A stretch of 32,634 bases of DNA from an uncultured Bacteroidia bacterium (GTDB taxonomy: Bacteria; Bacteroidota; Bacteroidia; Bacteroidales; UBA932), in NCBI GenBank assembly GCA_902785065.1, contig CACZXH010000034.1:1-32634 (forward strand), in the 5' to 3' direction. The notes under the pieces were generated by a model. That model saw nothing but the letters and a program-made list of their open reading frames with translations, made no database searches and was not told the DNA's origin. The translations under genes and the position numbers were made by a program. Shown piece after piece: positions 4,387-27,340 of the stretch. Every line of letters starts with the position of its first letter. Position 1 is the stretch's first letter.

Positions 4387-4436
4387 AGATTTCTCGACTT
4401 CGCTCGAAATGACAAAAGATGTCGCTCGAAATGACA
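4387..4436. repeat. Palindromic repeat between atpA and atpG
   Basis: One full unit (AGATTTCTCGACTTCGCTCG then AAATGACA, 4387-4414) followed by a partial second unit (GTCGCTCGAAATGACA, 4421-4436). It is followed by AAGGAATTAC, which contains the atpA stop codon. The same full-plus-partial layout and trailing GGAA(T/C)TAC occur at 27292-27348. Confidence 0.85.
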
Positions 4437-7372: not shown

Positions 7373-7401
7373 TGTCATTTCGAGCTTGTCGAGAAATCTC
7401 A
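7373..7401. repeat. Palindromic repeat between atpB and atpE
   Basis: TGTCATTTCGAGC, TTGTCGAGAAATCTCA: the AGATTTCTCGA/TCGAAATGACA element in inverted orientation relative to the copy at 4387. The last three bases are the atpB stop codon on the minus strand. Confidence 0.8.
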
Positions 7402-8490
7402 CTCACCGTGGGCCCTGGCGAGCCCGATATAAATCGACGAAAGCATCGTGAACACATAGGCCTGGATGAAAGCGACCAGGCACTCCAGCGCATCCAGGAA
7501 GATGCCGAAAAGCACGGACACCACCGTCATCGACCCCATCAGGAGCGGCCCGTACTTGGCCATGATGAAAATGATGCAGACCATGCACAGGATCATGATG
7601 TGGCCCGCCAGCATGTTCGCGAACAATCGGATGGTCAACGACACCGGTTTCATCAAGGCGCTGAAAACCTCGATGACGGGCATAATGGGCTTCAGGAAAA
7701 CCGGAACGTCCGGGTTGAAGATATCCTTGTAATAGTGCTTGGTCCCGGTCAAGTTCACTGTGAAGAAGGTGCACAAGGCCAACACCAGCGTGATGGCGAT
7801 GTTGCCGGTCAGGTTCGCCCCGCCCGGGAAGAACGGGACGATGCCCATGAAATTGTTCAGCAGGATGAACAGGAAGGCCATGCACAGGTAGGGGGAATAC
7901 TTGCGGTAATCCTCCTCGCCGATGTTCTCACGGGCCATGTCGTGGACCATCATCACGAGCGGTTCCATCAGGGCGGCGATGCCCGTAGGCGCCTCGTTCA
8001 GCACGTCGTGCTTCTTATACCACCGGGCCGTGAGGAGAATGATGACGAGCAGCAGCAGGCTGGACATCATCAGCGACAAGACGTTTTTCGTAATGGAGAT
8101 GTCGAAGGGCCGCTTGCCGCTGTCCACCTCCACAATCTTCCCTTTCTCCGGGTCAATCTTCAGGCCTTCGTAAGACGCCCCGTGCTCCAGGCGCTTGGAC
8201 GAGAACACGTGCCATCCCGTGGAGCTGTGCACGATGACGGGCAGGTGAAGCATCACATGCTTGTCTCCCCAGGTGAGGAGGTGCCACTCATAGTCGTCAC
8301 CGATATGCTCGAAGATAATCCCGGCGACGTCGACGTCCTCCTCTTGGACAGACTCGTCATGGCCGACCTGATCGGCCATCTGGAGATTCCCGGTCGAGCC
8401 GGGAATGACGGAAGAGGTCGAGCCGGGAATGACGGGAGAGGTTATACCGGGAATGACGAGCAACAGCGATATGAGCAAGCTCCAGATCAT
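7399..8490 (-). CDS. atpB: ATP synthase Fo subunit a with repeat-derived N-terminal insert
   Basis: The 363-residue stator channel subunit. The essential Arg is in the helix LTIRLFANMLAGH (near residue 300), and the C-terminus has the usual IGLARAHGE-like end. Bacteroidetes subunit a carries a cleavable signal peptide and a periplasmic stretch ahead of the five membrane helices; both are present here (MIWSLLISLLLVIPG, then GDDYEWHLLTW). Between them, residues about 11-46 contain the tandem pattern VIPGITS, VIPGSTS, VIPGSTG, then MADQVGHDE. This is encoded by palindromic repeats at 8357-8460. The start at 8490 overlaps the atpC stop in ATGA, which supports it over the repeat-derived internal ATG. 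The core is intact, so the protein is expected to work. Confidence 0.93.
   Translation of the reverse strand: MIWSLLISLLLVIPGITSPVIPGSTSSVIPGSTGNLQMADQVGHDESVQEEDVDVAGIIFEHIGDDYEWHLLTWGDKHVMLHLPVIVHSSTGWHVFSSKRLEHGASYEGLKIDPEKGKIVEVDSGKRPFDISITKNVLSLMMSSLLLLVIILLTARWYKKHDVLNEAPTGIAALMEPLVMMVHDMARENIGEEDYRKYSPYLCMAFLFILLNNFMGIVPFFPGGANLTGNIAITLVLALCTFFTVNLTGTKHYYKDIFNPDVPVFLKPIMPVIEVFSALMKPVSLTIRLFANMLAGHIMILCMVCIIFIMAKYGPLLMGSMTVVSVLFGIFLDALECLVAFIQAYVFTMLSSIYIGLARAHGE
8357..8460. repeat. Cluster of palindromic repeats inside the atpB 5' coding region
   Basis: Starts with the palindrome GGCCGACCTGATCGGCC (8361-8377), then ATTCCCGGTCGAGCCGGGAAT with GACG (8386-8410), then two further half copies ending in CCGGGAATGACG (8418-8436 and 8442-8460). 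The same two modules occur in the other order at 8751-8805. The whole block is translated in frame in subunit a. Confidence 0.85.
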
Positions 8491-8735: not shown

Positions 8736-8750
8736 TCTTTCTTGTTTTAG

Positions 8751-8804
8751 ATGGCCGATCAGGTCGGCCATGACGAAACCGTCATTCCCGGCTTGACCGG
8801 GAAT

Positions 8805-8807
<3 letters not shown>
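8751..8807. repeat. Palindromic repeat between atpD and atpC
   Basis: GGCCGATCAGGTCGGCC (8753-8769), a short TGACGAAACC link, then GTCATTCCCGGCTTGACC followed by GGGAATCT (8781-8805). Both modules are near-perfect palindromes and recur in atpB at 8357-8410. The atpD stop codon (TAG, 8805-8807 on the minus strand) lies at its edge. Confidence 0.85.
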
Positions 8808-26504: not shown

Positions 26505-27287
26505 CTATTCGAAGTGCAGATAGACCGCCGTGGCCGCAAGGACCGCGGCGGTTTCCGTCCGGAGGCGCGAAGCACCGAGGTGGACGGGGATGTAGCCGTG
26601 CTCCACGGCCAGGCGTGCCTCTTCCGGGGAGAAATCCCCTTCCGGGCCGATCAGGATGGTAATGTCCTTCCCTTCGTAGGCTTTCAAAGCTTCCTGAATG
26701 GAAATGCGCTTGGTGTCGCCTTCGAAGCAGTAGGCGATGAGTTTGAGAGATTTCTCGACTCCGCCCTCCGGGCTCCGCTCGAAATGACAAGGTGTACTGT
26801 CATTTCGACCGAGCGAAGCGAGTGGAGAAATCTGTATGAAATCCTTGACGGAAACCGGCTCCGCGATTTCGGGGATGCGGGCCTTGAGGGATTGTTTGGT
26901 GGCGGAGAGGGCGATGCGGAGGGCGCGGTCTGTCTTATAGACCTTTCGCTCGGATCGCTCGCCGATGGTAGGCACGATGCGGTCCACACCCACCTCCGTG
27001 GCCTTTTCTACAAACCACTCGAAACGGTCGTTGTTCTTCGTGGGGCAGCATGCGACGGTGAGCCGGTAGGGGTGGCCGCCCCAGCCGGGGAAGGCCTCGA
27101 GCACCTCGGCCTCGGCCCCCTTGGGATTGTCATCGACCAGCCTGCAGCGGTACATCGTCCCGAGGCCGTCAATCACGTTGACCTCATCCCCGACACGGTG
27201 CCGTAGCACGCGGCAGCAGTGACCGGACTCGTCGGCGTCCAGCCGGCAGATGCGGCTGTCGGAGTCGTATGCGTAGAAGAGCTCCAT
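26505..27287 (-). CDS. rsmE: 16S rRNA (uracil1498-N3)-methyltransferase with repeat-encoded insert
   Basis: A 260-residue SPOUT-class methyltransferase modifying U1498 of 16S rRNA. The N-terminal PUA-like part (MELFYAYD, HCCRVLRHRVGDEVNVIDG) and C-terminal knot (ILIGPEGDFSPEE, LGASRLRTETAAVLAA) are intact. Residues about 152-181 (QISPLASLGRNDS, TPCHFERSPEGGVEKSL) are not family sequence: they are the translation of an inverted pair of palindromic repeats at 26748-26833, inserted in frame between KDFI and KLIAYCFEG. This makes the protein longer than the usual 230-245 residues. The start at 27287 is chosen at MELFYAYD; the open frame extends to 27554 through a repeat and the end of the upstream gene. 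Confidence 0.93.
   Translation of the reverse strand: MELFYAYDSDSRICRLDADESGHCCRVLRHRVGDEVNVIDGLGTMYRCRLVDDNPKGAEAEVLEAFPGWGGHPYRLTVACCPTKNNDRFEWFVEKATEVGVDRIVPTIGERSERKVYKTDRALRIALSATKQSLKARIPEIAEPVSVKDFIQISPLASLGRNDSTPCHFERSPEGGVEKSLKLIAYCFEGDTKRISIQEALKAYEGKDITILIGPEGDFSPEEARLAVEHGYIPVHLGASRLRTETAAVLAATAVYLHFE
26748..26833. repeat. Head-to-head pair of palindromic repeats inside rsmE
   Basis: The first unit, 26748-26789, is AGATTTCTCGACTCC, a CCGGG-rich centre, then CGCTCGAAATGACA. The second, 26798-26833, is inverted: TGTCATTTCGACC ... GGAGAAATCT. Together 86 bases, read through in frame by rsmE. Confidence 0.9.
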
Positions 27288-27291
27288 AAAT

Positions 27292-27340
27292 AGATTTCTC
27301 GACTTCGCTCGAAATGACAAGGACTTCGCTCGAAATGACA
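27292..27340. repeat. Palindromic repeat between tsaC and rsmE
   Basis: A full unit (27292-27319) plus a partial unit GACTTCGCTCGAAATGACA (27322-27340), followed by AGGAACTAC, which contains the stop codon of the upstream gene. Layout is almost identical to 4387-4445. Confidence 0.85.

Follow-up and report, generated by a model that had tools for sequence, protein, structure and literature searches.

The rsmE gene raises the question of how palindromic repeats come to be read as part of a conserved enzyme. It lies in a stretch of 32,634 nucleotides from an uncultured Bacteroidia bacterium, referred to here as the window. A sequence-only reading had placed a palindromic repeat pair, in frame, inside rsmE at positions 26748–26833. 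This was correct. A search of the 2.74-Mb source genome with the pattern GTCATTTCGA..GAGAAATCT gave 83 matches; the reversed pattern gave none. The features are listed in Table 1.

Table 1. The rsmE gene, its repeat pair and further repeat units in the window.
Feature	Positions	Strand	Basis
rsmE, 260 aa, with the in-frame repeat pair; 16S rRNA methyltransferase family	26508..27287	-	family profile
41-nt palindromic unit with TGTC tag (minus-strand reading GTC..TCT); in gene sense, the right dimer half (CHFERSPEGGVEKS)	26748..26788	-	
10-nt spacer separating the two facing tags	26789..26798	.	
35-nt palindromic unit with TGTC tag; in gene sense, the left dimer half (ISPLASLGRND)	26799..26833	+	
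27-nt unit, same family, in the intergenic stretch directly upstream of rsmE	27292..27318	-	
27-nt unit, same family, not scored as inside a gene	4387..4413	-	
26-nt unit, same family, 3' end of atpB	7374..7399	+	

A facing repeat pair within the RsmE reading frame

Both rsmE units carry TGTC at the tag and share an ATGAC motif (reverse complement GTCAT). The GTC ends of the 41-nt and 35-nt units point at each other across the 10 nt between them. In each unit a perfect outer stem of 5 bp is followed by mismatches and a long inside. Folded as DNA, the pair forms a single hairpin of −24.8 kcal/mol (shuffled mean −11.7; z = −5.1). The RNA fold has an energy of −42.3 kcal/mol (z = −5.2). The window sequence confirms that residues 152–181 of RsmE (QISPLASLGRNDSTPCHFERSPEGGVEKSL) are the translation of the two facing units, as had been proposed.

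The protein scores 101.6 bits against TIGR00046, the RsmE family model, for which the cut-off is 41. Stricter NCBIfam equivalog models also match, all under their cut-offs. The GPEGDF and SRLRTET blocks are invariant across 34 aligned RsmE rows. With the codon-usage model of the source genome, RsmE has a coding-model score of 98.8. RsmE was also aligned with the solved structure PDB 3kw2_A ('Probable r-RNA methyltransferase'). This chain aligns either side of the insert; its adjacent residues 161 and 162 are matched by RsmE residues 158 and 181, respectively. Residues 159–180 have no counterpart. This bears out the earlier statement that both flanks match the family.

The stretch from KQSLK to KLIAYC is 46 residues long here, compared with 22–26 in most repeat-free congeners. 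Because the repeat-free loops are ~22 residues shorter, the insertion is not a clean one of 86 bases, and some native residues were replaced. The sequence-only reading, which expected a clean insertion of 86–90 bases, was wrong on this point. The net gain is ~22 residues, or ~66 bases (~60–72 from the lengths of the congener stretches), with a few native residues replaced. The repeat-coded loop is probably on the surface. Although known here from DNA alone, RsmE carrying the repeat is presumably active.

Repeat copies in the source genome and inside other genes

The repeat was said to occur between genes as well, and the last three units in Table 1 agree with this. A stem rule matches the window 10 times, with one match lying inside another, against 0.27 expected from dinucleotide-block shuffles. 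The atpB gene (window 7399–8490, minus strand; Pfam ATP-synt_A) has repeats of two other stem types at 8356–8409, in frame near the N-terminus (SPVIPGSTSSVIPGSTGNLQMADQVGHDES). A near copy of this hetero-dimer lies at 8749–8806, around the start of the next gene.

The 83 pattern matches rise to 97 with a wider pattern, which is found in 30 of the 61 genomes of a genus sample, with copy numbers from 1 to 114. This genus resembles Candidatus Cryptobacteroides. Of 80 RsmE relatives, 3 are recorded as Candidatus Cryptobacteroides and the others as Bacteroidales or Bacteroidia; many are from ruminants. One exact 27-mer type, the only type sought, was absent from all 88 other genomes of an order sample, one of which is a congener, and the idea that this type had spread outside the genus was dropped. 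The units number 82 in 72 clusters, and most are single by this pattern. Facing pairs besides that in rsmE are found at C5:39923/39972, C28:26074/26128, C40:55953/56000 and C45:5515/5601. Since the GTC start is built into the pattern and the rule, the tag of units outside rsmE is no independent check. A 26-nt variant, GTCATTTCGAGCTTGTCGAGAAATCT, is common in the source genome, and none of the in-frame mid-gene units scored is of this length.

A genome-wide search for copies and their frame extends the proposed coding role beyond rsmE. In the source genome (G000), 17 clusters by a loose standard, or 14 by a strict one, sit in a single open frame that is coding on either side of the repeat; the 72 clusters examined come from regions around the 83 pattern matches plus the window, rather than from all 97 wider-pattern matches. 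Three sites separate the two sets (NtrC-like, RsmA and MFS). The congener G081 has 13 of 50 clusters in frame inside genes and none out of frame; these clusters represent 40 fetched regions rather than all 85 of its matches, and were scored with the G000 coding model. The codon-usage model itself was trained on fetched parts of the source genome and seeded with five window genes.

Family searches identify the G000 host genes as RsmE, CysRS, DnaX, IspG, RsmA, a LacZ-type GH2, a sigma-54 regulator (called NtrC), TruA, MnmG, AroD-AroA, an M16 peptidase, an MFS protein, a kelch/NanM-like protein, an alpha-2-macroglobulin and a THUMP-like protein. The GH43-like and GNAT-like host proteins have no NCBIfam or Pfam match and were named by eye. 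For CysRS, TruA, RsmA and MnmG, solved relatives show gaps or unaligned stretches at the inserts. A GH2-like protein (named by eye) at L098 (G004:C61) has two separate in-frame insertions, one a single unit and one a dimer.

Ten sites in G000 seemed at first to be out of frame or to contain a stop. All ten look like junctions at which one gene ends and another begins; examples, named by eye, are MurG/MurC, MurD/FtsW, SufS/SufE and XseA/XseB. We therefore dropped the idea that the repeats break genes. Among the sites examined, no mid-gene copy was out of frame. At 6 of the 10 junctions (L036, L044, L051, L064, L069 and L077) the upstream stop is a TAG made from a T of the gene and the outer AG of the repeat. 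At junctions L063 and L081 the stop is TGA, from TG and the first A of the repeat. Near 1465–1527 of L034, the protein upstream of a PrmA-like gene (named by eye) has a C-terminal tail from two repeats (VIPSEAKESDPPVISSEVEKSES).

Frame use was scored for 32 units. The sense frames are used 15, 6 and 1 times and the antisense frames 2, 7 and 1 times. With all six frames in use, the notion of one conserved repeat-coded peptide was dropped. A related proposal is that the segments are kept for function, whereby the RNA hairpin would slow translation or the encoded peptide would contribute to binding. The energy of the RNA fold, the uneven frame use (15 of 32 units in one sense frame) and the identity of the hosts (by family, four of 17 genes in tRNA or rRNA modification, and one CysRS) are in keeping with such a role. 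However, single units and dimers alike occur, in every frame, the target genes are varied and sister-species orthologs are found without the repeat. We regard retention for function as quite unlikely.

Most genomes compared are metagenome-assembled, and the source genome is in 50 contigs. Repeats invite misjoins, so they might have been joined into these genes during assembly. However, the flanks come from the same gene, with the frame kept, at 14–17 sites. Moreover, other records, among them L156, L157 and L158, have related dimers at these codons. An assembly artefact is thus extremely improbable.

The same loops in related species

Orthologs of 15 of the 17 repeat-bearing proteins were found in G003, the nearest relative. 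In six of these the repeat is missing and the stretch is shorter (MnmG, AroA, RsmA, GH2, IspG and CysRS). Another five carry a different stem type by rule (RsmE, GH43-like, TruA, GNAT-like and NtrC-like). Two have the G000 type in common (M16 and DnaX), and two contain repeat-like sequence that fails the rule (alpha-2-macroglobulin and THUMP-like). The rule required GTC, a five-base arm starting with AT, the reverse complement of that arm, and C. By this rule, 16 of 42 ortholog loops contain a repeat (G003, G019 and G005, with G081 for CysRS; one of 43 orthologs did not span the loop). There were 20 matches (one nested) in 2640 nt of loop versus 3 in 14646 nt of other aligned segments. Those three, kept in the count, seem to be other dimer halves in the same loops (GH43-like of G005, THUMP-like of G019 and CysRS of G081). 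The G081 CysRS has a dimer at the same place. For 9 of the 17 proteins, another species has a different stem type in the same loop.

The RsmE loop was followed across the genus. By rule, a repeat is present in 18 of 103 distinct congener RsmEs, with six five-base stem arms. Across these arms the two sides of each stem change together. The set of 103 derives from 110 RsmE loci; L024, which is cut off by the end of its contig, was not parsed, and six of the remaining 109 were removed as duplicates. Control counts used a stricter start motif, by which 102 RsmEs were parsed and 96 were distinct. Shuffled loops gave 0.03 rule matches per 96, and outside the loop the rule matched 7 times in 61578 nt of RsmE genes. 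On an RsmE tree built with most of the loop left out, there are at least 12 changes of presence or absence and at least 16 changes of type, counts in which gains and losses are not told apart. L163, which has a diverged tag, was set by hand to repeat-bearing in the presence/absence count.

Rule-negative loops reach at least 30 aa in 14 of 85 cases; therefore, the loop also grows in other ways. The same loop is enlarged by glycine-rich or tandem peptides, non-repeat by rule, in the L005, L176, L217 and L179 RsmEs. Tandem GHDATF copies occupy a different loop of the L029 RsmE.

The clade containing the window's RsmE has support of 99/97. Within it, the left half of the dimer is kept in L156 and L158, and the right half in G003, L159 and L163. 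The L157 loop contains a hetero-dimer whose left half is of the window's type and whose right half is of the G003 type. L161 has another type and L162 has none.

We also compared loop types with the repeats of the surrounding genome. The type in the loop was multi-copy in its own genome for 6 of 6 genomes in one set (6–43 matches). In a second set this was so for 5 of 11 genomes, those that the pattern covers (24–94 matches); the loop types of the L156, L157, L159, L161, L162 and L163 genomes fall outside this pattern. Reversed patterns gave 0 matches in both sets. With a wider pattern that fits them, those six genomes and that of L158, seven from the same clade, have 3 to 163 matches. The L161 genome contains ~30 exact copies of its RsmE-loop unit. 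The L158 genome has only the 3 matches, one of which is probably the rsmE site, and by this pattern its unit is not multi-copy.

These data bear on whether each gene took up one old insertion, which was then inherited, diverged into the present types and disappeared from many lineages. The M16 and DnaX inserts common to G000 and G003 fit such a history, as does the left RsmE half, identical in L001, L156, L157 and L158. Stem types are also slightly clustered on the RsmE tree (11 changes against a shuffled mean of 12.9), and the tree counts mix gains with losses. However, six stem arms occupy one RsmE loop with both stem sides changing together, and the type found in a loop is mostly one with multiple copies in that genome, the ~30 exact copies of the L161 unit included. 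Furthermore, the type differs at one site between G000 and G003 despite RsmEs that are 92% identical. A single old insertion per gene is, on this evidence, unlikely. The evidence favours recurrent insertion or exchange at hotspot loops.

We consider it probable that the RsmE insert is a facing dimer of a CGTC-type (TGTC-tagged) repetitive palindromic element, inserted or exchanged in a tolerant loop. On the simplest account, the elements would spread through genomes of the genus as non-autonomous repeats, presumably moved in trans. Copies landing in genes would survive only where the frame stays open and the loop is dispensable, and would then persist as about 8–30 extra residues, a peptide likely to be nearly neutral. 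The same loops may take repeats again; a resident may disappear, shrink to one half or give way to another stem type, always with the frame intact. Such refilling could reflect either few insertion-tolerant places or a resident repeat that attracts exchange. As a tentative extension, which we rate as rather less likely to be right than wrong, a DNA-level process may preferentially swap repeats at resident repeats, so that the loop peptide turns over between species with the frame kept. If so, palindromic repeats would continually supply loop diversity to core enzymes, RsmE, TruA, AroA and RsmA among them. As a caution, an inserted loop seen in an alignment or structure from these bacteria can stem from a repeat.

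Relation to known palindromic elements

One possible source of mobility is a host RAYT-type Y1 transposase. The repeats would then be REPINs, and the intragenic copies by-products. As in REPIN/RAYT systems (PMC6006769), there are doublets that form a single hairpin, and Y1 proteins are present in the genus (46 of the 61 sampled genomes). The source genome has two Y1_Tnp proteins. Matches to Y1 occur in 27 of 30 repeat-bearing versus 19 of 31 repeat-free genomes (Fisher p = 0.016; Spearman 0.32, p = 0.011), but the association is not significant in genomes at least 90% complete (p = 0.14). G076, which is 98% complete, has 26 repeats and no Y1 match, and G068 has 7 Y1 matches and no repeat. Unlike in REPIN/RAYT systems, neither Y1 locus of the source genome is repeat-flanked, with no repeat within ~1.5 kb of either gene, and the tag is not GTAG. 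Rule matches were present at 3 of 14 Y1 loci, two of them apparently by chance, and at 3 of 29 control flanks. Given the weak co-occurrence, and Y1 loci that are not clearly richer in repeats, RAYT mobilisation was dropped as the main account; we hold it to be possible but doubtful.

The Rickettsia elements RPE-1 to RPE-3 (Ogata et al., 2000, as cited in PMC2229807, PMC10969869 and PMC3767692) are likewise mobile palindromic elements read in conserved proteins. As those citing texts describe them, they are about 100–150 bp long, and orthologs have the same group at similar sites. The units here differ, being 26–41 nt long and read in all six frames.

The elements resemble the CGTC-tagged REPs, which include Rickettsia RPE-4 and RPE-6 (Di Nocera et al., 2013; PMC3733652). 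As defined in the main part of that paper, these have an unpaired CGTC (often TGTC) tag at one end, a stem of 8–9 bp starting with A-T pairs and a loop of 4–5 nt, and head-to-head dimers predominate. The same text places Bacteroidetes among the hosts, describes intragenic REPs in several species and reports finding no dedicated transposase. It also gives a pair of REPs at the same site, in recB of two Xanthomonas species. Our elements share the TGTC/CGTC tag, the AT-starting stem, the dimers and the presence of several families per genome, as well as intragenic units of 20–30 residues and no dedicated transposase known. We read facing tags as the equivalent of 'head-to-head'. The window unit 8781–8806 fits the stem and loop form (ATTCCCGG CTTGA CCGGGAAT). 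Unlike CGTC REPs, the rsmE units have an imperfect stem and a long variable inside, and PMC3733652, in its main part, names no intragenic Bacteroidetes case.

The sequence-only reading knew of no such elements in Bacteroidales. In part this had been anticipated; intragenic CGTC REPs, and CGTC REPs in Bacteroidetes, are already in print (PMC3733652, main part), as are different RPE groups at one Rickettsia locus. The narrower point may stand; in the main texts of the open-licence literature we found no report of intragenic repeats in Bacteroidales, though Additional file 3 of PMC3733652 might list Bacteroidetes cases. What is new is the Bacteroidales case, its scale and the evidence favouring recurrent insertion or exchange at hotspot loops. 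Protein-coding palindromic elements are thereby seen at scale in an uncultured gut lineage, beyond intracellular Rickettsia.

Because the elements resemble CGTC REPs, which include RPE-4 and RPE-6, the parallel with Rickettsia drawn from the sequence holds. The repeats lie in frame in many conserved genes, their GTCAT motif corresponds to the ATGAC of RPE-4, RPE-6 and RPE-7 as given in PMC3767692, and they form dimers as CGTC-tagged REPs do. By description and motif, the repeats may work like RPE, a likeness for which we claim no membership. As with RPE-4, RPE-6 and RPE-7, different groups are found at the same ortholog locus; in Rickettsia, PMC3767692 leaves a hotspot and a common origin open, leaning to common origin, a view that would suit a single old insertion here. 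Unlike those elements, the present ones belong to another phylum, and here the loops without repeats, the hetero-dimers and the types typical of each genome speak for insertion or exchange having happened repeatedly. The choice between a hotspot and one diverged insertion, open from Rickettsia, can be tested gene by gene in dozens of genomes of this genus.
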